This document shows positions 1-43,287 of a DNA stretch of 43,287 nucleotides, piece by piece. Made by a program: the position numbers and the translations under genes. Every line of letters begins with the position of its first letter. Positions within the stretch are counted from its first letter, which is position 1. The DNA comes from Candidatus Tepidiaquacellales bacterium OLB4/UTCHB1 (GTDB lineage: Bacteria; Bacteroidota; Ignavibacteria; Tepidaquicellales; Tepidaquicellaceae): contig MWSW01000015.1 of NCBI GenBank assembly GCA_002050165.1, positions 1 to 43,287 on the forward strand. Reading direction: 5' to 3'. The notes below the pieces were generated by a model, which saw only the letters and a program-made list of their open reading frames with translations, was not told the origin of the DNA and searched no databases.

Positions 1-17
1 CAGGACGACAAATGTCG

Positions 18-450
18 TTATTTTACCAACACCATCTTCCCTGAAATTTTATATTCTCCTGATTGCAAAATATAATAATAAATTCCGCTCGAAAGGTCTG
101 AAGCATCAAACTCATATTCATAACTTCCCGGGTTTATAACCTGATTTGCCAAATCGGAAATTTCCCGCCCGAGAATGTTAAACACACTTAGCCTTACATT
201 TGAACCGGACACCGGAATATCGAATTTTATTCTTGTTTATGGATTGTATGGATTAGAATAGTTCTGGTGCAGAGAGAGTTCGTTCGGAATTACATTACTG
301 ATATGTTGCAGACCTGTATTTAGTTAAAGAGAATATTCATCTTTCTGAAAAGCTCACTTTGAATTAATTTGAATCCATAGCATCCGCTTGTACACCGGAT
401 TTGTGAAAACGGAAATATTCAACTCAATGATGTGGCGAGTACAGTGTCTC
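18..450 (-). pseudogene. Decayed T9SS cargo gene, C-terminal remnant
   Basis: The last 64 codons encode a typical T9SS sorting domain (VFNILGREISDL, SSGIYYYIL, ending KMVLVK). Reading upstream in the same frame, the conserved QNYPNPFNP box appears as QNYSNPYNP and is followed at once by a TAA. Further upstream the frame stays protein-like (SVFTNPVYKRMLWIQI, then AFQKDEYSL) but is broken by a TGA and another TAA. A different frame takes over near position 430 (KTGDTVLATS), indicating a frameshift. No start or export signal is visible. I infer a secreted-protein gene that has lost function through several nonsense changes and at least one frameshift. The upstream limit is approximate. Confidence 0.7.
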
Positions 451-8501: not shown

Positions 8502-10061
8502 TCAGGCGGAAAATTTAAATTGCTTTGTTGAATTCGACTGGATTATTTCCTCGAAACTCTTTCCGCTCATCTTTGAATCAACCCAGGTAACAACGTCAAG
8601 GTACTCGTTTGCTTTCCTTTCGTATTCGTCTTTGTTCAGTTCAATTATGGCGGATCTCAGTTCGCGCAGTTCAAACAGGATGTCATCTCCCCTGCTGATC
8701 TTTATGAGCTTGCTGAAAGTATGTAGCACGGCTTTCTCGAACTGAAAAATCTTGTCGCGTTTCTCAAGGAACCGCTTCAGTGATTTCAATTCGTATTCGA
8801 GGAGGATGAAATTTTTCAGCTCGTAGTGAATAATGATGTTCATTATTCTCGCGAGCGCTTTGTAATCGAGCCGGTAGGATGATTTATCGTTCACGATTTG
8901 GTTTATCCAAATCAGCGCTCTTTCGTAATCGCCCGCGCCGAAATAAGTGTATGCAATAGTGTAAAACGTTTTCAGTTGTTCCGATCCCGCAATCTGATTG
9001 TGATGTCTCTCAAGCCACTCTTCGACTTCGGGAATTAGCTTTATTCCCCTTGAGAAATTTCCCGTAGCGCAATAAATGTTTATTTCGATATCGTAGCTAT
9101 TGAGGTACATTTCGAAATGTTTTGAAACCGATCGCATATTTTTAAATTCCCCCGCCGATTTCCTCAGTTTTTGCAGGTAACTGATGCAAAGGTTATAATC
9201 GCCCATATTGTACGAAAGCGCTATTACGTCGTTGAGCGCATAAATCATTTCACTCCGGTTTGCGGGGATTTTATTGAAATTTTTCTCGATGAGCCGTAGT
9301 CGCTTTACGCCGAAGTCGTACGCTTTTCTGAAATCTCCGGTTGAGTAGCAGTACATGTAATTAATAATGAAGAACAAATTTTTCGCCCTGACCGACAGCG
9401 CTTTCGATTCGGACGACATCAGCTTATTCTTTATCACCGCCGAATATTTCTGAACGTCTTTCTTATTCCTCGTTACGCCGAGTTTTTTATATAGCGAAGA
9501 GAACTTTACATAAAGCAGGTTATATTCGGAAATATTCTCAAGAATTCTAAGCGAGTTTTTCTCCTCTGCCGCCCGTTTTTTTGAGAGTTCATCAAACTCC
9601 GGATTGCCGAACTTCATGTAATCGAAATTCTTTTCGTCATTTATGATCTCAACAAGTTTCACGTGCCTCTCGGATTCCATCGCGAGGCTTTTCGCACGCT
9701 TCAGCAAATTTTCGGAATGTTTGAACAGTGTTTTCTTGTAAAGTATTTTATACTGGCTGATCAGGTTTGTAATCTTTGAATCAATTGAATCGTCTTTGTG
9801 GTAGTTCTCCAGCGCCCTCAGAATTTCGTTTATAAGGTAGTTCTTCGCGGCGGAGAATTGTTTTACAAATTTTTCGCCCTCAAACTTTTTTATCAATGCC
9901 CGTTCGTCGTATTTCTGCTGTTTGTTGATTTCGTTGAACAGCCTGATGTAGTTGTTCTCCGATCCGATTACGTGGCGGGTTGCAAACTTCGTGAAGTAAA
10001 CCTTCTCCGACGGCGTCATTGAGTTTATGAGTTCAAATAAAAATTCGGATGGGATTTTCAA
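8502..10061 (-). CDS. Large helical-repeat protein, unnamed paralogous family (member 1)
   Basis: A 519-residue cytosolic protein, almost entirely alpha-helical with TPR-like pairs (for example YRLDYKALARIMNIIIHYEL and FEMYLNSYDIEINIYCATGNF). There is no signal peptide or membrane segment. It belongs with the minus-strand proteins at 21012-22490 and 38467-39903. All begin with a short helix, then Ser/Thr-x-x-E-x-x-x-F-x-K-(F/Y), then helical repeats, but this member is the most divergent and lacks the SPFF/SPYF box. The start is TTG; it is supported because the family motif begins only about 15 residues downstream, and the first in-frame ATG (residue 15) would cut into it. Function unknown; a protein-interaction scaffold is likely from fold alone. 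Confidence 0.8.
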   Translation of the reverse strand: MKIPSEFLFELINSMTPSEKVYFTKFATRHVIGSENNYIRLFNEINKQQKYDERALIKKFEGEKFVKQFSAAKNYLINEILRALENYHKDDSIDSKITNLISQYKILYKKTLFKHSENLLKRAKSLAMESERHVKLVEIINDEKNFDYMKFGNPEFDELSKKRAAEEKNSLRILENISEYNLLYVKFSSLYKKLGVTRNKKDVQKYSAVIKNKLMSSESKALSVRAKNLFFIINYMYCYSTGDFRKAYDFGVKRLRLIEKNFNKIPANRSEMIYALNDVIALSYNMGDYNLCISYLQKLRKSAGEFKNMRSVSKHFEMYLNSYDIEINIYCATGNFSRGIKLIPEVEEWLERHHNQIAGSEQLKTFYTIAYTYFGAGDYERALIWINQIVNDKSSYRLDYKALARIMNIIIHYELKNFILLEYELKSLKRFLEKRDKIFQFEKAVLHTFSKLIKISRGDDILFELRELRSAIIELNKDEYERKANEYLDVVTWVDSKMSGKSFEEIIQSNSTKQFKFSA

Positions 10062-12198: not shown

Positions 12199-12240
12199 TT
12201 GAAATCATTTTTATTTTAAATATAAATTAATATATTTAGC
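12199..12240 (+). promoter_or_regulatory. Shared upstream element of the mosaic cargo genes (copy 1)
   Basis: TTGAAATCATTT, a T-rich stretch and TATATTTAG lie 35-75 bp before the start codon. The same arrangement occurs before the next paralogue (from 15898) and, less closely, before the third (from 18519). The TATATTT part approximates the Bacteroidota -7 box. Conservation across copies suggests it is the promoter. Confidence 0.4.
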
Positions 12241-12274
12241 ACAATCCAATTAATAAACCTCTAAAGGAGATAAA

Positions 12275-15200
12275 ATGAAACGAATCTTATTATTTGTATT
12301 CTCTGCTCTCTTTCTGCTTTCACTAAATGTGAAAGATTCTTACTCGCAGCCCGTAACAATTACCATCGGCACTCAGGATGTTCAAAGCGGTACAGGCAGT
12401 TACGGACCAACTAATTATTATTATATGAGCTATAGGATTCAATGGGTCATCACTGCGGCTGAAATAATTGCTGCAGGCGGCGGCGCCGGCAATATTGAAT
12501 CAATGGCATACGATGTCTCTCAAATTGCAGGCGGTGATCTTTTAAACTATGAAGTTCGAATGGCGCACACTACCGCAACCGATGCATCAAGCCATGACAC
12601 CGCTACCCTTACAACGGTTGTTAACTCTCACACTTTCACGCCCGGTTCAACCGGATGGCGTACTCTTACGTTCGATACACCTTTTAACTGGAACGGTACT
12701 GACAACATACTCGTTGATGTTTGCTGGGGAGTGAACTCAGGTTGGAGTAGTTCCGGTCAGGTATGGCTTTACAATAATGTTGCAAACCAGATGAGGGGTA
12801 TTCGCGCCGACGGTTCTAACCAGTGCGGTACTATTACAAGTGATACCCGTTCCGGAAAGCCCCGCGTTCAGCTGACTTTACCACCAGCTTCAAATCCGGT
12901 GTTAAGCGTTACCCCATCGTCGAAAAATTTCGGTGACGTAACGGTTAACCAAACTTCTGCGCAGGTATTTGATATAACTAATGCCGGCGCTGATACATTG
13001 ACTGTAAATGGTATTTCGGTCGCCGATACGACATACTTCAAGTTTACGGATACAAACTCATACCCAGTATCATTGGTGTCAGGGCAGCATATTTATGTAA
13101 CGGTTACATTCACGCCGACAAATACCGGTTCACAATCAACCGATATGACCGTAAACTCCGATATAGATACCTCAACGGTAGCCCTCTCGGGTAAAGGGAT
13201 TAAATACTGCATCCCTCAGGCAAACTGCAGTTATGAATACATTTCCAATGTAACCTTCAGCGACCTGAACCTTACTTCCGGCTCTTCGTGTACAAACGGT
13301 TATATGGATTCATCCGCTACGCATTTCGCCAATATTCAAACGTACAATACTTACACACTGTCATTCACCGTAGTAGAGGGAGGCACTGAATATGTCCGCG
13401 CCTGGTTTGACTGGAACGGCGATTACACCCTTGACACTACGGAGCAATACAGCTACCCGACAGCTATAACTGTTAGCGGAACATACACAATGGATATCAC
13501 CGTACCCGACTCCGCAATTCTCGATACTACACGGATGAGGGTTTACATGAAATATTACTCATATCCCACGCCCTGCGTAACCGGTGGTTGGGGTGAAGCA
13601 GAAGATTACTCTGTTGTCATCACGGCAGGGACTCCGCCGGCTGATGACGTTGGAATTTCTTCAGTTGTAGCTCCGGGCAACGGGCAGATAGTTGACCGCT
13701 CCGGATCGGATGTTTCAGCTTACGTTAAGAATTTCGGTACAAACCCGGCTTCAAATATAGATGTTTATTACAAGCTGGATACCAATTCAGCCATTGGACC
13801 AATCAATATCGCCGGTCCGTTAGCTCCGGGCGATTCAACGCTTGTAACGTTCACCGGTGCGAACCAGCTTACATCAGCAACCGATGTCGCAGGAGCGCTC
13901 AGGATTTATACATCGTTTGCAGGAGACGTGAACGGAACAAATGATACCGCGCAGGTTATTGTAGTCCTTGTAAATCCGTTGTCAGTACCATATTTTGAGG
14001 AATTTACGACACCGGCTTTTTATACCATCTCGGGTACAGCAAACATCTGGAACTTTTTAACAGGCGTCAATCCGGCGGGAACGGCTGCCGATCAAATGGC
14101 TAGAGCTAATTTCTATAATTTTTCATCAGGTTACCAATACCTCAGGACTCCGATAATTGACCTTACGGGTACAAGTAACCCGGTACTTTCTTTTTACGTT
14201 ACATACAGGTCATATTCGGGTGAGGACGATGGTTTAGAGGTCAGGGTTTCAACGGATGGCGGTATGACTTACGATGCGCCGCTTCTTGATAAATCCTATC
14301 TGAGCGTGCCTTCGCTTGCAACTCTCCCCAATAGTTCATCATCCTACACACCGGGGGCAGCCACCGATTGGCGGCACGAGGTATTGGACCTCTCCGTTTA
14401 CGCGGGGCAGAAGATTGTAATCGGGTTTAATGCAATTACCGATTACGGAAATAATATGTGGATTGACAATATAGATGTAACAAACTCTGCCAACGTTTCA
14501 ATTATTCCGGTTGCGGTAACCGGTGCTTACGGAGATTTGTCAACCGATTCCGCACAGGTTATTTTCACTGCCCTCAGGCCCGGTCTCGGAGGCGGTACCA
14601 CACCGCAGCTTGACGGTAAAATCAGTGAAATCGTAAGACCGGAAGGTACGATTATCGGTGAGCTTAAATTTGCGGATGAAAACTCTCCAACGCTGAAAGT
14701 TGAGAGAAACAAAAAGGGTAAAGGCAACAATCCCGGTATAAGTCCGGACGCTTCAACGGGTACCCTTGTGATTTCCCATTTCACGGATTTCCCGCTGAAC
14801 AATACGTTTGCACCGAACGTATCGGCGACCACGTTTAACGGCGCTATTTATACTCCTGACGTAATTTCAAACAGATACTGGGAGATTTCCTTCTCCGGTG
14901 ATGACTACGTTTCGGAGGCAACTTACGATATAGTCCTTGATATCCGCGGGCAACTCGGTGTTGTAACGTACGATTCGTTGTATATTGTAAAACGTGTTGA
15001 CCAAAGCGGTCCGTGGGTATGTCTCTCAACAATAACCGAATACGAGTCAGGCGTACCGGTGAGGTTGAGGGCAAATGGTATATCCGGATTCAGCCAGTTT
15101 GGAATTGCTGCCGCTGACGGTACATTGCCTGTTGACCTGATTGAGTTCAACGCCACTGTTGACCGCAACAATGTAATGCTGAGCTGGTCAACGGCATGGG

Positions 15201-15697
15201 AAGAGAACAACATGAAATTTGACGTACAGCGCAGACCTGCCGAAACCGAGGCATCGTGGCAGACGGTCGGTTCGGTAAAAGGAAGCGGAACGGTTCACGA
15301 GCAGAGGAACTACTCGTATCACGACAAGAGGCTCGTAACGGGCAAGTATGAGTATCGCCTCGTTCAGGTTGATTTCGACGGAAATATAACCGCAGACCAT
15401 AACCTGGGAAGCGTAGTTGAAGTGGGAATCCCGACGGAATTTGCGCTGTCGCAGAACTACCCGAACCCGTTCAACCCGTCAACGAAGATAGACTTCCAGA
15501 TCCCTGTAGAAGGAATGACGAAGCTTGTAATCTTCGACCTGTCGGGCAGGGAGGTAGCAACGCTTGTAAACGAGACATTGATGCCCGGGTATTACACTTA
15601 TGATTTCAACGCGTCAACACTCGCAAGCGGGGTTTACTTCTACAGGTTGGTTTCAAAGGATAACATACAGACGAAGCGAATGGTATTGATTAAATAA
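12275..15697 (+). CDS. Large multidomain T9SS-secreted protein (mosaic paralogue A)
   Basis: A 1140-residue secreted protein with a strong Shine-Dalgarno (AAAGGAG). Order: signal peptide to about residue 25 (NVKDSYSQ); an unnamed beta-rich module 26-205; a HYDIN/choice-of-anchor-D-type module 206-310 (LSVTPSSKNFGDV); a GEVED module about 311-450 (YVRAWFDWNGDYTLDTTEQY, then GGWGEAEDYSVVI); a CARDB-like module 455-565; a choice-of-anchor-J/MAM-like module about 570-735 (MWIDNIDV); a further beta module; the LPVDLIEFNATVDRNNVML pre-sorting linker; and the T9SS sorting domain ending KRMVLIK. No catalytic motif is seen, so adhesion or surface structure is likely. The first 300 residues nearly match paralogue B. 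Its GEVED module has a counterpart at the start of paralogue C. Confidence 0.9.
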   Translation: MKRILLFVFSALFLLSLNVKDSYSQPVTITIGTQDVQSGTGSYGPTNYYYMSYRIQWVITAAEIIAAGGGAGNIESMAYDVSQIAGGDLLNYEVRMAHTTATDASSHDTATLTTVVNSHTFTPGSTGWRTLTFDTPFNWNGTDNILVDVCWGVNSGWSSSGQVWLYNNVANQMRGIRADGSNQCGTITSDTRSGKPRVQLTLPPASNPVLSVTPSSKNFGDVTVNQTSAQVFDITNAGADTLTVNGISVADTTYFKFTDTNSYPVSLVSGQHIYVTVTFTPTNTGSQSTDMTVNSDIDTSTVALSGKGIKYCIPQANCSYEYISNVTFSDLNLTSGSSCTNGYMDSSATHFANIQTYNTYTLSFTVVEGGTEYVRAWFDWNGDYTLDTTEQYSYPTAITVSGTYTMDITVPDSAILDTTRMRVYMKYYSYPTPCVTGGWGEAEDYSVVITAGTPPADDVGISSVVAPGNGQIVDRSGSDVSAYVKNFGTNPASNIDVYYKLDTNSAIGPINIAGPLAPGDSTLVTFTGANQLTSATDVAGALRIYTSFAGDVNGTNDTAQVIVVLVNPLSVPYFEEFTTPAFYTISGTANIWNFLTGVNPAGTAADQMARANFYNFSSGYQYLRTPIIDLTGTSNPVLSFYVTYRSYSGEDDGLEVRVSTDGGMTYDAPLLDKSYLSVPSLATLPNSSSSYTPGAATDWRHEVLDLSVYAGQKIVIGFNAITDYGNNMWIDNIDVTNSANVSIIPVAVTGAYGDLSTDSAQVIFTALRPGLGGGTTPQLDGKISEIVRPEGTIIGELKFADENSPTLKVERNKKGKGNNPGISPDASTGTLVISHFTDFPLNNTFAPNVSATTFNGAIYTPDVISNRYWEISFSGDDYVSEATYDIVLDIRGQLGVVTYDSLYIVKRVDQSGPWVCLSTITEYESGVPVRLRANGISGFSQFGIAAADGTLPVDLIEFNATVDRNNVMLSWSTAWEENNMKFDVQRRPAETEASWQTVGSVKGSGTVHEQRNYSYHDKRLVTGKYEYRLVQVDFDGNITADHNLGSVVEVGIPTEFALSQNYPNPFNPSTKIDFQIPVEGMTKLVIFDLSGREVATLVNETLMPGYYTYDFNASTLASGVYFYRLVSKDNIQTKRMVLIK
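12307..13192 (+). repeat. Duplicated block A/B, copy in paralogue A
   Basis: 886 bp aligning without gaps to 16005-16890, with scattered substitutions. It covers the end of the signal peptide, the N-terminal module and the HYDIN-like module. Similarity stops abruptly at the module end (ALSG-KGI versus ALSG-TGI). Confidence 0.9.
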
Positions 15698-15724
15698 CGA
15701 TAGGTAGTAACCCTCAGTTAACAG

Positions 15725-15758
15725 CGGGCATCGGTGGAAACATCGGCGCCCGTTTTTT
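15725..15758 (+). terminator. Terminator of the CGGGCATCGG family (copy 2)
   Basis: The hairpin differs from the one at 12111 at one loop-side base (CATCGG for CACCGG) and is followed by TTTTTT and the same TTATTGCGC tail. It ends paralogue A. Confidence 0.88.
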
Positions 15759-15897
15759 ATTGCGCTTTTTTTTCAGGCGGAGGTAGCAATGGATTTTTAA
15801 TGAAAACATGAATTCATTTAAGCTTTCAGTGCAGAGTTGCGGGAGATAGCGTTTTTTTTACGAAAGGGGATAATAATTATTCTCCGGTGTAGTGGCA

Positions 15898-15940
15898 TTG
15901 AAATCATTTCTATTTTATATGTAAATTCTTATATTAGGCA
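15898..15940 (+). promoter_or_regulatory. Shared upstream element of the mosaic cargo genes (copy 2)
   Basis: TTGAAATCATTTCTATTTTA followed by TTATATTAGGCA, closely matching the element before paralogue A. It lies 33-75 bp before the start codon, with a strong AGGAGG Shine-Dalgarno in between. Confidence 0.4.
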
Positions 15941-15972
15941 ACAAACCTTTAAACAATTTCACAGGAGGAAAA

Positions 15973-18252
15973 ATGAAACTCATTTCAACAGTAGTTTTTT
16001 CTGTTCTCTTTCTGCTTTCACTAAATGTGAAAGATTCTTACTCGCAGCCCGTAACAATTACCATCGGCACTCAGGATGTTCAAAGCGGTGCAACCGGTTA
16101 CGGACCAACTAATCGTTATTATATGAGCTATAGGATTCAATGGGTCATCACCGCGGCTGAAATAAGTGCTGCAGGCGGCGGCGCCGGCAATATTGAATCA
16201 ATGGCATACGATGTCTCTCAAATTGCAAACGGTGATCTTTTAAACTATGAAGTTCGAATGGCGCACACTACCGCAACCGATGCATCAAGCCATAACACCG
16301 CTACCCTTACGACGGTTGTCAACTCTCACACTTTCACACCCGGTTCAACCGGATGGCGTACTCTTACGTTCGATACACCTTTTAACTGGAACGGTACTGA
16401 CAACATACTCGTTGATGTTTGCTGGGGAGTGAACTCAGCTTGGAATGGTTCCGGTCAGGTATGGCTTTACAATAATGTTCCAAACCAGATGAGGGGTGTT
16501 CGCGCCGACGGTTCTAACCAGTGCGGTACTAATACAAGTACTACCCGTTCCGGAAAGCCCCGCGTTCAGCTGACTTTACCACCAGTTTCAAATCCGGTGT
16601 TAAGCGTTACCCCAACGTTGAAAAATTTCGGTTACGTAACGGTTAACCAAACTTCTGCGCAGGTATTTGATATAGCTAATGTCGGTGCTGGTACATTGAC
16701 TGTAAATGGTATATCGGTCGCCGATACGACATACTTCAAGTTTACGGATACAAATTCATACCCTGTATCATTGGCGACAGGGCAGCATATTTATGTAACG
16801 GTTACATTCACGCCGACAGATACCGGTTCACAATCAACCGATATGACCGTAAACACCGATATAGGTACCGCAACTGTAGCCCTCTCGGGTACCGGCATTC
16901 AGCCGAACTTCGGCTCGAACGGACAATCAGGGAACAATCTTTACTATTTCGCAAATTCACTTTCAGGTGGAAGCGGAGCGCCGTCTCATCCGACATTTGC
17001 CTGGAGAGATACGAGCGGTTCAACCATATTAGTTCAGAACGGTGTTGCGTTCGTTCCGCCAACGGCAGGATCATTAGATGACGGCAGGTGGGATATTCTT
17101 GCCCCGTTACCTGCGGGAAATTCCATAATGTTCTTCGGAACGAATTACACCGATATATACATTAACACAAACGGAGTGATTGGTTTTGCACCTACAACCG
17201 CACCGTTTACAGTAGCTCTATCTTTACCGGCAGCGGGTGGACCATCGGCGGCAATTTATCCGCTCTGGATGGATATGAATTTCAATTACAATAATATCAC
17301 GGGCGGAACCACATTGAGTTATAAAGTTACCGCAGATGAATTGATTATTACTTACAACCGTGTATCGCCTTACGTTGGCGGTGGGGTAACCTCAGCAACG
17401 CCAGATCTTTACGTTTCTTATCAGATTGTAATTTCCCATTCGAGCTCACCGGCGCAAAATTCGATGATTGTACTTCAATACAACTGGGATGAAACCGGAA
17501 TTGATTTCCAAAATGATTACACGTCAACCGGCTTAAGCACCAGAGCTCACATTATCGGGCTTCAGGGTGCGAACGATGCTGCTCAAACGTTCACCTACAG
17601 GAACAGGCACAACACCGGTTTTCAGGGACCAATCTTCGGATCAAACCTCGCCCTTTCAATAGGTCCTGACCAAAACGCTCTTCCGGTTGACTTGATTGCA
17701 TTCAACTCGAACGTTGACCGAAACAACGTAAAGCTCACCTGGACAACAAGCTGGGAGGAGAACAACGCGAGATTTGACATCCAAAGGAAAGTAGCAAACA
17801 CGAGCTCTCAATGGGTAACCGTTGGTACGGTAGCCGGCAGTGGCACTGTCTATGAACAGCGGAACTATACGTTTACCGATAAGAACCTTGTAAGCGGAAT
17901 TTATGAGTACAGGTTATTGCAGTTCGATTACGACGGTAACATGAACGCCGACTTCAACCTCAGCAACACGGTAGAGATTGGCGTACCATCGGAGTTTGCA
18001 CTATCACAGAACTACCCGAACCCGTTCAACCCGACAACGAAGATTGACTTCCAGGTACCTGTAGAAGGATTAGTGAAGCTCAATATAGTTGACATTACGG
18101 GTCGTGAAGTAGCAACGCTTGTGAACGAGTCACTTACCCCCGGATATTACAGTTATGATTTCAATGCATCGAACCTGTCATCCGGAGTATATTTCTACAG
18201 GTTGGTAAGTAAGAGCTCAGTAATCACAAAGAGGATGATGTTGGTGAAATAA
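15973..18252 (+). CDS. Multidomain T9SS-secreted protein (mosaic paralogue B)
   Basis: A 759-residue secreted protein preceded by ACAGGAGGAAAA, an unusually strong Shine-Dalgarno for this genome. Modules: signal peptide to residue 25; the same N-terminal module as paralogue A (26-205); a HYDIN-like module (about 206-308); a nidogen-like module (about 309-570, with YINTNGVIGFAP and AAIYPLWMDMNF); the LPVDLIAFNSNVDRNNVKL linker; and a T9SS sorting domain ending KRMMLVK. The front third is nearly identical to paralogue A and the rest is nearly identical to paralogue C, so the gene is a hybrid of its neighbours. The junction is at the module boundary near ALSGTGIQPNFG. No enzymatic motif is seen. 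Confidence 0.9.
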   Translation: MKLISTVVFSVLFLLSLNVKDSYSQPVTITIGTQDVQSGATGYGPTNRYYMSYRIQWVITAAEISAAGGGAGNIESMAYDVSQIANGDLLNYEVRMAHTTATDASSHNTATLTTVVNSHTFTPGSTGWRTLTFDTPFNWNGTDNILVDVCWGVNSAWNGSGQVWLYNNVPNQMRGVRADGSNQCGTNTSTTRSGKPRVQLTLPPVSNPVLSVTPTLKNFGYVTVNQTSAQVFDIANVGAGTLTVNGISVADTTYFKFTDTNSYPVSLATGQHIYVTVTFTPTDTGSQSTDMTVNTDIGTATVALSGTGIQPNFGSNGQSGNNLYYFANSLSGGSGAPSHPTFAWRDTSGSTILVQNGVAFVPPTAGSLDDGRWDILAPLPAGNSIMFFGTNYTDIYINTNGVIGFAPTTAPFTVALSLPAAGGPSAAIYPLWMDMNFNYNNITGGTTLSYKVTADELIITYNRVSPYVGGGVTSATPDLYVSYQIVISHSSSPAQNSMIVLQYNWDETGIDFQNDYTSTGLSTRAHIIGLQGANDAAQTFTYRNRHNTGFQGPIFGSNLALSIGPDQNALPVDLIAFNSNVDRNNVKLTWTTSWEENNARFDIQRKVANTSSQWVTVGTVAGSGTVYEQRNYTFTDKNLVSGIYEYRLLQFDYDGNMNADFNLSNTVEIGVPSEFALSQNYPNPFNPTTKIDFQVPVEGLVKLNIVDITGREVATLVNESLTPGYYSYDFNASNLSSGVYFYRLVSKSSVITKRMMLVK
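16005..16890 (+). repeat. Duplicated block A/B, copy in paralogue B
   Basis: Counterpart of 12307-13192, same length with no indels. Substitutions are spread along the block, so this exchange is older than the B/C one. Confidence 0.9.
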
Positions 18253-18380
18253 GGGTAGCAGATTCAGGTACATCCCGACGGGGATGAGAAATATAACGGG
18301 CATCGGCACAAACGCCGGTGTCCGTTTTTTTATGTTAAGTTATCTTTTCACGCAAAGGGCGCAGAGTTCGAAGAGATTTT
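16897..18380 (+). repeat. Duplicated block B/C, copy in paralogue B
   Basis: 1484 bp matching 19432-20909 with one net 6-bp length difference (GGGVTSATPDL versus GGTSTTPDL). In the last roughly 690 bp (linker, sorting domain, stop, terminator, 3' flank) I see a single base difference. The match ends 128 bp after the stop codon, at AGAGATTTT. Confidence 0.92.
18297..18331 (+). terminator. Terminator of the CGGGCATCGG family (copy 3)
   Basis: CGGGCATCGGC / GCCGGTGTCCG hairpin followed by TTTTTTT. It is identical to the terminator after paralogue C and related to those after paralogue A and the FG-GAP gene. Confidence 0.85.
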
Positions 18381-18588
18381 TTAAAGGAAAGCAGGTAGTA
18401 ATTATTAGGAAGTAAGTAGTAGTTAACTTTTCTTGCGTACTTAGCGAAATAGCGTTTATAGTGTGAAATGTTACGGAATAAATTCCGGTTAAAGATTTAA
18501 ACATTAAAATAATAACAACCCCTTTTTATTTTATTTGCAAATACTTATATTAATACCCAAACCAATAATCAATTTCACAGGAGGAAAA
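18332..18588. other. Intergenic region with CGCAAAG-type inverted sequence and promoter-like element
   Basis: No gene seen. The start (TTTTCACGCAAAGGGCGCAG) and a later stretch (CTTGCGTACTTAGCGAAATA, about 18438-18457, ending TGTGAAA) form a loose inverted pair of CGCAAAG/CTTTGCG type, reminiscent of small dispersed repeats in other genomes. The first arm recurs after paralogue C, the second does not. TTTTTATTTTA and TTATATTAA near 18522-18553 correspond to the promoter-like element of the other two paralogues. Confidence 0.4.
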
Positions 18589-20781
18589 ATGAAACTCATT
18601 TCTACAGTAGTTTTTTCTGTTCTTTTTCTGCTTTCACTAAATGTGAAAGATTCTTACTCGCAGTACTGTATCCCCGACCCTGCTCCGAACTGTAACTTCG
18701 AATTAATTTCCGAAGTATCATTCAGCAACATGACCAATACGAGCGGTCTGACTTGTGTAGGCGGATATCAGGATTACACCGGTACACACAATGCCAATGT
18801 TATAAAAGGCGCACCGTACAATTTATCGGTTACGATTGATCCGGATGCCAATGATTACATTGTTGCCTTTATTGACTGGAATGGTGACGGTGATTTCGAC
18901 GATGGGGATGAAACTTATCCGGTAGCCGGACCTGTCGGCGATCCCGGACCGCACACAATTAGTATTACCGTTCCTATGACCGCGAATACGGGCGTTACCA
19001 GAATGAGGGTTTACTTGAGGTGGGCGGCTGCTCCGACGCCTTGCATTACCGGTGGTTACGGTGAAATCGAAGATTATGCAGTAACAGTTTCCGGTGGTGG
19101 TGGCGGACCAATATTTGGTGTTACACCATCTACGGGAAGTTTCGGGTACACAGTTGTTGGAGATACATCATCAGCGATACCTTTCAAAATCGGCAATTAC
19201 GGAGGCGGAACGCTGAATATTACTAACACTTCAATCAACGCTATTTTTGACGACCCGAGCCAGTTTATCTTAACGGATACAAATACATATCCGGTTGCGT
19301 TAACCTCAGGTCAGTTCATGTACGTATCGGTTGCATTCGCGCCTTCGTCCGTCGGCTTAAAAGAAGCCAATCTAACCATAACAGATGATCTGTCGGACGT
19401 AGCCCATAACGTTCCATTGTCGGGTAACGGTATTCAGCCGAACTTCGGCTCGAACGGACAATCAGGGAACAATCTTTACTATTTTGCAAATTCACTTTCA
19501 GGTGCAAACGGAGCACCGTCTTATCCGACATTTGCCTGGAGAGATACGAGCGGTTCAACCATATTAGTTCAGAATGGTGTTGCGTTCGTTGCGCCATCGG
19601 CGGGAACATTAGATGACGGCAGGTGGGATATTCTTGCCCCGTTACCTGCGGGAAATTCCATTAAATTCTTCGGTACAAATTATACCGATATTTACATTAA
19701 CACAAACGGAGTGATTGGTTTTGCACCTACAACCGCACCGTTTACAGTAGCTGCATCTTTACCGGCAGCGGGTGGACCATCGGCGGCAATTTATCCGCTC
19801 TGGATGGATTTGAATTTCAATTACAATAATATCACGGGCGGAACCACATTGAGTTATAAAGTTACCGCAGATGAATTGATTATTACTTACAACCGTGTAT
19901 CGCCTTACGTTGGCGGAACCTCAACAACGCCTGATCTTTACGTTTCTTTTCAGGTGGTAATTTCCCATTCGAATTCACCGTCGCAAAATTCGATGATTGT
20001 ACTTCAATACAACTGGGATGAAACCGGAATTGATTTCCAAAATGATTACACGTCAACCGGTTTAAGCACCAGAGCTCACATTATCGGGCTTCAGGGTGCG
20101 AACGATGCTGCTCAAACGTTCACTTACAGGAACAGGCACAACACCGGTTTTCAGGGACCAATCTTCGGATCAAACCTCGCAATGGGAATGGGTCCCGATG
20201 CAAACTCGCTTCCGGTTGACTTGATTGCATTCAACTCGAACGTTGACCGAAACAACGTAAAGCTCACCTGGACAACAAGCTGGGAGGAGAACAACGCGAG
20301 ATTTGACATCCAAAGGAAAGTAGCAAACACGAGCTCTCAATGGGTAACCGTTGGTACGGTAGCCGGCAGTGGCACTGTCTATGAACAGCGGAACTATACG
20401 TTTACCGATAAGAACCTTGTAAGCGGAATTTATGAGTACAGGTTATTGCAGTTCGATTACGACGGTAACATGAACGCCGACTTCAACCTCAGCAACACGG
20501 TAGAGATTGGCGTACCATCGGAGTTTGCACTATCACAGAACTACCCGAACCCGTTCAACCCGACAACGAAGATTGACTTCCAGGTACCTGTAGAAGGATT
20601 AGTGAAGCTCAATATAGTTGACATTACGGGTCGTGAAGTAGCAACGCTAGTGAACGAGTCACTTACCCCCGGATATTACAGTTATGATTTCAATGCATCG
20701 AACCTGTCATCCGGAGTATATTTCTACAGGTTGGTAAGTAAGAGCTCAGTAATCACAAAGAGGATGATGTTGGTGAAATAA
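18589..20781 (+). CDS. Multidomain T9SS-secreted protein (mosaic paralogue C)
   Basis: A 730-residue secreted protein. I choose the ATG that follows ACAGGAGGAAAA and opens the signal peptide (MKLISTVVFSVLFLLSLN); an in-frame TTG 54 bp earlier would add an unlikely extension. Modules: signal peptide to 25; a GEVED module (about 26-175, FIDWNGDGDFDDGDETYPVA, GGYGEIEDYAVTV); a HYDIN-like module (about 180-285) clearly diverged from that of B; a nidogen-like module (about 286-540); linker; T9SS sorting domain ending KRMMLVK. From GIQPNFGSNG to the end it is nearly identical to paralogue B, while its GEVED module resembles the internal one of A. Its N-terminal half therefore has a different origin from that of B. 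Confidence 0.9.
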   Translation: MKLISTVVFSVLFLLSLNVKDSYSQYCIPDPAPNCNFELISEVSFSNMTNTSGLTCVGGYQDYTGTHNANVIKGAPYNLSVTIDPDANDYIVAFIDWNGDGDFDDGDETYPVAGPVGDPGPHTISITVPMTANTGVTRMRVYLRWAAAPTPCITGGYGEIEDYAVTVSGGGGGPIFGVTPSTGSFGYTVVGDTSSAIPFKIGNYGGGTLNITNTSINAIFDDPSQFILTDTNTYPVALTSGQFMYVSVAFAPSSVGLKEANLTITDDLSDVAHNVPLSGNGIQPNFGSNGQSGNNLYYFANSLSGANGAPSYPTFAWRDTSGSTILVQNGVAFVAPSAGTLDDGRWDILAPLPAGNSIKFFGTNYTDIYINTNGVIGFAPTTAPFTVAASLPAAGGPSAAIYPLWMDLNFNYNNITGGTTLSYKVTADELIITYNRVSPYVGGTSTTPDLYVSFQVVISHSNSPSQNSMIVLQYNWDETGIDFQNDYTSTGLSTRAHIIGLQGANDAAQTFTYRNRHNTGFQGPIFGSNLAMGMGPDANSLPVDLIAFNSNVDRNNVKLTWTTSWEENNARFDIQRKVANTSSQWVTVGTVAGSGTVYEQRNYTFTDKNLVSGIYEYRLLQFDYDGNMNADFNLSNTVEIGVPSEFALSQNYPNPFNPTTKIDFQVPVEGLVKLNIVDITGREVATLVNESLTPGYYSYDFNASNLSSGVYFYRLVSKSSVITKRMMLVK

Positions 20782-20909
20782 GGGTAGCAGATTCAGGTAC
20801 ATCCCGACGGGGATGAGAAATATAACGGGCATCGGCACAAACGCCGGTGTCCGTTTTTTTATGTTAAGTTATCTTTTCACGCAAAGGGCGCAGAGTTCGA
20901 AGAGATTTT
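19432..20909 (+). repeat. Duplicated block B/C, copy in paralogue C
   Basis: Counterpart of 16897-18380. Differences are concentrated in the first half; the sorting-domain half differs by one T-to-A change (GCAACGCTAGTG). Terminator and 52 bp beyond the hairpin and its T run are included. Confidence 0.92.
20826..20860 (+). terminator. Terminator of the CGGGCATCGG family (copy 4)
   Basis: Identical to the hairpin after paralogue B, followed by TTTTTTT. It ends paralogue C before the convergent helical-repeat gene. Confidence 0.85.
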
Positions 20910-21011: not shown

Positions 21012-22490
21012 TTATTTTTCTGATGAATTTTTTAATTGTGTAAATTTCTCCAGTAACCAGTTTTTCTGCGAAATGACGGAATTGTTAATTTTCCTGTAAA
21101 ATGAATCAGGTGGATCTGATACATTGTTCATCCGATAGCGCAGCAATTGCCTGTACAAATCAAAAAACTCTTCAAGAGTAACCCGGAAGTATCCGGAGAT
21201 TGACGGATTAGAATTGAGGAAATGACGGTAAGAATCCAATGCGTATAACGCGGATTCAAATTCGTGCAGTTCGTAATAGAGTTGTAGTTGCAGGTTCCTC
21301 ATTTCATATTTAAAACTTGGTGTTACAAAGTGAACTTTCGATAACTCTTCAAGTGAACGGGTGAAATGTTTCTTCGAGAACAGAATTGAAGCCATTGCGA
21401 AATGTTTCATATTCACCTGCTGGTCAACTGAAAGTTTAGAGATGTTTTTTGAAACAAAATGGTCAACCCAATCAGTTTGATTAAGCGTTAATCCCAATTT
21501 TAATAAAGAGAAGAAGAAAATTATGCTCATATTCTGATTTACGGCGAAATTGTAAAGGTTCAGTTCCAGCCGGAGTTTATAAATCTCAAATAGTTTTGGC
21601 AGATATTTTTCCCTGCTTATAAAGGCAGCTTTGTTGCTCGTGCATGAACTAAGAGTAACCAGCAAATTATACTTTTCGAAGCGGTCAAAGTAATCCAGAT
21701 TATTTAAAAGCAAATCGCTAAACAATGAATAATAATGTTCGTCAGTGGGTTCATTTATTGTGATTATGATTGAGCAATATATCTTAGCGACAATTTTTAG
21801 TTGTGGTTCCAGTTCGAACGTATCCAATTGCCCTAAGAAATCCTTTAAGTCCATCGAGGAAAAAAAACCTTTGAGAAGGTTGCGGGAATAATCGTGGTTG
21901 AAACTATCGGCAACGCTTTGCAGATTCGGGACGGACACGGAAGCTCTTTTAAGAAAATCTATTACGTTTAGTTTTGCAGTTGTTGCAATATTCTCAGATA
22001 TAAGGTGCTGTTTATTCCTCTGTACTTTGAACAGTATTTTCAGATTTTCCAGCATGTACTTTTCAAAAAAGAAGTTTTCAATACTGTGTCTGTTCTCCGA
22101 TAAATAGGATTCGAATTTGTTAATATCGTTATCGTTCATACTTGCAATGTTCCGGTCAATTAATTCCGTAAGCAAATGCCGTTTAACGACAACCGGGTCT
22201 TTGTAAAAGTTTTTAATAGTAAGGTAATCTTCGATTAAGCGGAGTAGCGTTGAACTCAGATTTCTCATAATGTGGTCTTTGTACTCTACACCGGGATAGA
22301 GTTTAGCGAAAAGTGAGTATTTGTTAACGTGTTTTTGAGAAAAGTCCGGGTAATTCTTTTTTAAAACACCGTAAAATTTTGTTACGCTCCGGGCCCTTTG
22401 AAAGAACGGCGAGGCTATGAACTTCTCAAACTCTTTCAGTTCGACTTTGCTAAACGTTCTCAGAATTTCGACAATACGACTCTTTTCCAT
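21012..22490 (-). CDS. Large helical-repeat protein, unnamed paralogous family (member 2)
   Basis: A 492-residue, all-helical cytosolic protein with no signal peptide. The N-terminal signature is FSKVELKEFEKFIASPFF, followed by YGVLKKNYPDF, a Lys-Tyr-Pro box (FAKLYPGVEY) and NLSSTLLRLIEDYL. The C-terminal signature is NWLLEKFTQLK. Member 3 shares both ends (LTPKEVTLFGKYIRSPYF; IYPEENFNR; YWLLEKFKDLL), which makes them true paralogues; member 1 is more distant. I recall proteins with this SPFF...WLLEK architecture in Bacteroidota, without assigned function. The gene is monocistronic by position, with an ATG start and no clear Shine-Dalgarno. It flanks the secreted-protein cassette on the right just as member 1 flanks it on the left. 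Confidence 0.85.
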   Translation of the reverse strand: MEKSRIVEILRTFSKVELKEFEKFIASPFFQRARSVTKFYGVLKKNYPDFSQKHVNKYSLFAKLYPGVEYKDHIMRNLSSTLLRLIEDYLTIKNFYKDPVVVKRHLLTELIDRNIASMNDNDINKFESYLSENRHSIENFFFEKYMLENLKILFKVQRNKQHLISENIATTAKLNVIDFLKRASVSVPNLQSVADSFNHDYSRNLLKGFFSSMDLKDFLGQLDTFELEPQLKIVAKIYCSIIITINEPTDEHYYSLFSDLLLNNLDYFDRFEKYNLLVTLSSCTSNKAAFISREKYLPKLFEIYKLRLELNLYNFAVNQNMSIIFFFSLLKLGLTLNQTDWVDHFVSKNISKLSVDQQVNMKHFAMASILFSKKHFTRSLEELSKVHFVTPSFKYEMRNLQLQLYYELHEFESALYALDSYRHFLNSNPSISGYFRVTLEEFFDLYRQLLRYRMNNVSDPPDSFYRKINNSVISQKNWLLEKFTQLKNSSEK

Positions 22491-42429: not shown

Positions 42430-43064
42430 ATGAAGAAGGTTTTAGGAGCATTATTAATTCTACTGTCATTAAAAAGCAATTTAATTGCTCAGTGGTCACA
42501 ACAAACGAGCGGGACTTCAGAATATTTAACGACAGTTTACTTTGCGTCCGAGAATGTAGGGTATATTTCAGGTGGAATGCAGACCGTATTAAAAACAGTT
42601 AATGGTGAAAACTCCTGGCAGGCAATTAATATCAACCTTTTCCCAGGTGAAGAAATGAGTTGTATTTATTTTTTAAATGAAAATACGGGCTGGGTTTCAA
42701 CCGGATGGATATGTGGTTCGGGGGGAACCGTTGTAAAAATGACTAACGGAGGGGCTGTCTGATCAGTTCAAAACACCGGAACAACCAGCCGGAAATTCCG
42801 GAAAAGTTTTCACTGAAACAAAATTATCCAAATCCATTTAATCCGATAACCCTTATTCAGTTCGATATTCCAAAATCCGGTATGGTTAAACTATATATTT
42901 TCGATGTAACCGGAAGAATGATTGATGTGCTTGTAAACGAAGAACTATCTGTAGGAACTTATGAATACTCGTTCAATGCCGGTGAGTTACCGAGTGGAGT
43001 TTACTTTTATAAACTTGAATCTGACGGGCAGAAAATTACGAAGAAAATGGTATTGAACAAATAA
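42430..43064 (+). pseudogene. Collapsed Ycf48/BNR-type T9SS cargo gene
   Basis: The first part (110 codons) has a signal peptide and two Ycf48-like repeats (VYFASENVGYISGGMQTVLK, IYFLNENTGWVST), then stops at TGA just after NGGAV. A T9SS sorting domain follows in another frame (IPEKFSLKQNYPNPFNPITL to KKMVLNK), with no start codon before it except deep inside the domain. A normal family member would have several more repeats between. I infer an internal deletion that removed most of the propeller and put the sorting domain out of frame. The sorting domain is most like that of the neighbouring metalloprotease at base level. Confidence 0.75.
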
Positions 43065-43246: not shown

Positions 43247-43287
43247 GTCTTTAAACCCTATTCATTACTTAGTATTACGACACCTGT

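Follow-up and report, generated by a model that had tools for sequence, protein, structure and literature searches.

The 3' ends of B and C, two neighboring genes for cargo of the type IX secretion system (T9SS), are nearly identical over 701 bp, and the explanation that we favor, with a probability of roughly three in four, is that this 3' module was recently copied between the two paralogues by ectopic homologous recombination, in the simplest case a non-reciprocal conversion. The window analyzed (43,287 nucleotides) is the whole of contig C17 of a 2.42-Mb genome that is assembled in 19 contigs and 99% complete. Three neighbors on its forward strand, on which the features of these genes given below also lie, encode T9SS cargo. 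Gene A (12275-15697) was examined by self-comparison and domain search; B (15973-18252), examined by self-BLAST, base-by-base alignment and domain search, is a mosaic with an A-like front and a C-like back; and C (18583-20781) carries, according to domain search, GEVED, choice-of-anchor D-like and middle domains followed by the tail. For C the ATG at 18583, with AGGAGG upstream, is a likelier start than the TTG at 18535 of the open reading frame list. The sorting-domain label of the first-pass annotation was correct: PF18962 and TIGR04183 (T9SS type A sorting domain) are above cut-off at the extreme C-terminus of all three proteins, and in the domain search PF18962 covers 18013-18237 in B and 20542-20766 in C. 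MKLISTVVFSVLFLLSLNVKDSYSQ, judged by eye only, looks like an N-terminal Sec signal peptide. The host also encodes the PorU sortase (NF033707, 926.7 bits) and PorV (NF033709, 301.6 bits), adjacent on contig C13. Minus-strand genes at 8502-10061 and 21012-22490 were considered as paralogues framing the array and rejected, as their match is weak (20% over 176 amino acids, E 0.006).

By self-BLAST, B 16885-18380 and C 19420-20909 are 96.6% identical, but their differences are distributed very unevenly. The middle block (B 16897-17679, C 19432-20208), which represents an older homology, contains 42 substitutions and one 6-bp indel. In the tract that follows it (B 17680-18380, C 20209-20909 in the base-by-base alignment) there is one difference, a synonymous third-position change at 18120/20649. 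This is in agreement with the earlier observation that the last part of the two copies, then put at roughly 690 bp, differs by a single base. The block had been placed from 16897 to a sharp end 128 bp past the stop codon; its right end is confirmed, while the start was a few bases late, homology being recognizable from about 16885. The tract includes the LPVDL domain, the sorting domain, the stop codon, a terminator and 128 bp of 3' flank. Its 5' edge coincides with the L codon of LPVDL, the residue with which the domain preceding the sorting domain begins, and the sequence to the left is homologous but less similar. On the right, identity extends to 18380/20909 and there switches abruptly to unrelated sequence. 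The terminator reported inside the identical stretch is represented, in the sequence, by a terminator-like hairpin at 18295-18326 with an identical copy at 20824-20855. The contrast between middle block and tract is significant (Fisher test p = 3e-11, or 3e-8 without a linker with 12 differences), and none of 20,000 random placements gave a run with at most one difference as long as the observed 701 bp. The linker itself, at 17652-17679/20181-20208 just 5' of the clean tract, carries its 12 differences in 28 bases, far above the level of the middle block, and may reflect either an edge effect or a patch derived from some third gene. The right edge of the tract was also searched for a repeated extragenic element, and the motif there occurs, with up to three mismatches allowed, only in B and C.

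Synonymous divergence between B and C falls from a dS of 0.115 in the middle block (0.090 when the divergent linker is left out) to 0.008 in the tail, which corresponds to one synonymous change in about 124 sites. The claim that synonymous sites are unusually alike at this end of the block is thereby borne out. Since two synonymous ages are present in one alignment, a single recent duplication is not sufficient to explain it. From the pair of explanations offered in the first-pass annotation, conversion or very recent duplication, it is the former that is favored; the latter, as a single event, is contradicted both by the two dS ages and by the A-like front of B.

This front is common to B 15898-16891 and A 12199-13193, includes about 75 bp of 5' flank and is 93% identical (dS 0.046, dN 0.051), and at 16885-16891 B changes from A-like to C-like sequence. 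Self-BLAST also detected 90% identity of the B 5' flank and signal-peptide region (15907-16047) to C 18523-18663. Despite the low dS of their fronts, the tails of A and B are synonymously saturated (dS 1.72). B is a mosaic of three ages, of which the middle shared with C is the oldest, followed by the front shared with A, and the tail shared with C is the youngest. The closest partners are in conflict, the B front pointing to A, the B tail to C and the A tail to a further gene, X. Gene A, too, is made up of stretches that match three different genes, namely B (12199-13193), Y (13205-13624, GEVED) and X (13646-15808), and both Y (C8_341737) and X (C8_344209) are located on contig C8, unlinked to A. 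The tail and 3' flank of A (15124-15799) differ from those of X at 3 positions in about 675 bp, with an exact run of 474 bp and zero synonymous changes over the last 573 coding bases, and are a second case of the B/C pattern. As a separate observation, dN and dS of the A 12359-13192/B 16057-16890 fronts (0.051 vs 0.046) give a ratio near 1, and the ratio for the B/C middle is 0.3-0.36; the value for the fronts could reflect relaxed or diversifying selection, or patchy import.

Part of this mosaic structure could also arise if C was recently duplicated in tandem, with its tail and 128 bp of flank, and the front and middle of B were then replaced by sequence of another strain or of a diverged allele, with the tail staying as it was. 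Such a history would yield the same two dS ages, the front of B does come from an A-like source, and the sharp end at +128 would simply be the duplication edge. We nevertheless regard it as unlikely, because it requires an extra donor for the middle of B, for which no other close copy was found in the genome, and leaves unexplained those pairs of genes that share only tails on unrelated bodies. For the tract itself no third near-identical copy is present in the genome, the next best matches being partial and 71-77% identical. Very improbable, in our opinion, is unequal crossing-over, in which a tandem duplication of C would be followed by a deletion joining the middle of B to the tail of the first copy. 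B and C are adjacent and in the same orientation, and a shared tail with a sharp +128 edge is a possible outcome, but two steps and a lost intermediate copy are needed, and the pattern of the unlinked A and X is not readily covered.

The similarity of the tails could in principle be attributed to strong purifying selection at the protein or nucleotide level, as the sorting domain is conserved among cargo proteins. The probability of this is close to nil. The same domain reaches a dS of 1.7-2.2 between paralogues (A vs B; B vs Y), codons at invariant tail residues are freely used (105 tails), and the non-coding flank of 128 bp is identical. Saturated paralogue tails together with free codon use mean that no nucleotide constancy is imposed on the sorting domain, and the earlier argument that selection on protein is insufficient is well founded. 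A nucleotide-conserved tail motif that would serve as an anchor for recombination was rejected for the same free codon use, and no such site was seen.

Two further results, the A/C mosaicism of B and a genome-wide pattern of similar tails, have no counterpart in the first-pass annotation. There are 115 sorting-domain matches in the genome, and we compared the DNA around nearly all of them, each against each, with 110 tails entering the clustering. Median pairwise tail identity was 52% at the nucleotide level, and 20 of the 110 tails fell into seven clusters at an identity of at least 85%. In several clusters the shared blocks begin 245 to 257 bp before the stop codon, where the LSQNYPNPFNP motif starts, and they often end at the stop or about 60-130 bp beyond it (once 327). 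Pairs on contigs C18 and C12 combine tails that are 97.8% and 97% identical with bodies of only 33% and 31% amino acid identity, respectively, and near-identical tails on unrelated bodies are present in C12_3145 and C9_4092 as well as in C16_128796 and C9_4092. A tail pair on contig C6 (99.4%) was dropped as strong evidence, due to N gaps in both genes.

Members of the order have from about 115 to more than 150 genes each with the same sorting tail. In a closed, single-contig genome of the same family (G025) only two tail pairs reach at least 85%, the top one 91% (104 of 119 tails). In the four-contig genome G013 tandem tails are up to 87% identical and none reaches 88% or more over 80 bp in a sample of about 77 tails. 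A two-contig genome from another family has several tail pairs in a sample of about 69 tails. In one of them (C1:655010-655371 and 656936-657297) the bodies have no detectable similarity, and the number of differences decreases from 9-12 per 50 bp where the tail begins to none between -50 and +100 around the stop. As its non-coding part is better kept than the coding one, protein selection cannot be the cause, and this pair is built in the same way as B/C although it comes from an assembly that is nearly complete. The process acting on tails is thus not confined to this genome, and recent events are unusually many here, although sampling was unequal and the rates are not strictly comparable; the near absence of near-identical tails in G025 indicates that its activity varies within the family. 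A missing MutS as the reason for high exchange was discarded, since MutS was found here and in three comparison genomes and is not an evident explanation. A scan of a collection of genome contigs gave only front-domain relatives, in Flavobacteriales.

An assembly artefact, in which B and C received one and the same tail sequence through collapse or gap filling of a repeat, deserves attention because contigs of this genome end in repetitive sequence, namely cargo tails, a beta-helix module or one of the two ends of an apparent insertion element, and have end sequences in common. On C6, repeated genes contain two N gaps (80 and 91 bases), and exact repeats of 440 and 260 bp occur within the B/C tract. 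The assembly is apparently repeat-limited and scaffolded, and the exact identity of the 440-bp within-contig repeat should be read with that limit. However, there is no N in the window, the two copies differ at 18120 and have unlike flanks, and the diverged middle was kept separate, so that collapse would itself need a near-identical tail. Consensus copying cannot have produced those other pairs that are 94-97% identical and have their differences scattered, and a similar anatomy is seen in the two-contig genome. We therefore hold an artefact to be improbable, and conversion between B and C the preferred reading.

Several features of the contig ends should be mentioned in their own right. CGACATTTGTCGTCCTG occurs five times in the genome, always at or near a contig end (window 1-23, the end of C1, the start of C2, C7:234-256 and C8:87-109), and every copy immediately follows the stop codon (AAATAA) of a gene with a sorting domain. 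It resembles one terminus of an insertion element that prefers a particular site. TTAGTATTACGACACCTG, at the right end of the window (43265-43287) and common to four other contig ends, including C3, C13 and C18, may be the opposite terminus of this element. Close to this end there is a broken cargo gene (42430-43063): the reading frame that opens at 42430 is closed at 42762, and the sorting tail that follows at 42825-43052, 81% identical to that of the upstream gene, is in another frame. At the left end, a sorting tail on the minus strand (30-260) has an in-frame TAA. A near-identical beta-helix-like module (EFRNGAYLDADGITFSGNNGAIWGG...) is found at the ends of six contigs, C9, C14, C12, C19, C16 and C7 (L056, L068, L090, L110, L116 and L088), and probably constitutes a second family of recently homogenized repeats. 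The N runs of 80 and 91 lie in repeated cargo genes (L084; C6:97949 and C6:101783) whose short tail-bearing frames are 99% alike.

We propose that the unit copied between B and C would consist of the LPVDL domain, sorting domain, stop, terminator and flank, and that repeats of the same recombination would give rise to the near-identical tails elsewhere in the genome. Tails, being common to all cargo genes, could be exchanged without harm, and the bodies would diverge. RecA is the likely agent, judging from its gene, which is encoded in the genome. Conversion, as opposed to paired crossovers, is what we infer from this one genome, and either gene may have been the donor. A conversion tract in the classical sense would have homologous sequence on both sides, and the unrelated sequence at the right edge speaks against that form. 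The typical tail identity of 52% is too low for ordinary RecA exchange, which means that already similar copies or another starting route would be needed; ordinary RecA exchange between unrelated tails is accordingly unlikely. A more far-reaching idea, which we consider doubtful, is that in this lineage the sorting tail and 3' flank form a portable cassette that passes preferentially from one cargo gene to another, by exchange or capture, and whose edges recur where the tail motif starts and at the terminator or shortly after it. Bodies that are new or foreign would thereby be given a working export tag, perhaps donated by broken genes of which only the tail is left. The genome does contain a few cargo genes that are broken or reduced to a tail, and nothing ties them to donation.

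If tails swap as units, this bears on how large cargo families grow and how new proteins acquire an export tag, and trees based on tails and on bodies may conflict. Tail repeats also break, and may distort, assemblies of these genomes. Recombination between paralogues is well known from antigenic variation, where in vls, pilE/pilS and tprK mosaic surface protein genes are made by unidirectional recombination, the exposed part being varied and silent donors used. In contrast, here it is the export tag that is homogenized while the bodies vary, and dedicated donor cassettes were not shown. Intragenomic conversion is established for bacterial rRNA operons, which undergo concerted evolution, and there, as in B and C, conversion keeps paralogous stretches alike while flanks differ (PMC8022953, PMC6002687). 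In those accounts, however, whole RNA genes under strong constraint are affected, and here only the C-terminal module of divergent protein genes. In the literature searched on gene conversion, concerted evolution and domain shuffling we found no report of homogenization of T9SS tails. The nearest known case is that of the surface proteins of Porphyromonas gingivalis (gingipains, HagA), for which domain rearrangement and allelic exchange are described and gene conversion has been invoked (PMC5266723). There too homologous recombination reshuffles T9SS cargo genes that have modular domains and sorting tails in common (PMC5266723). In P. gingivalis, however, adhesin and catalytic modules of a few virulence genes are concerned, across strains, whereas here it is the tail and 3' flank, among some 115 cargo genes that all belong to a single genome from a different lineage.
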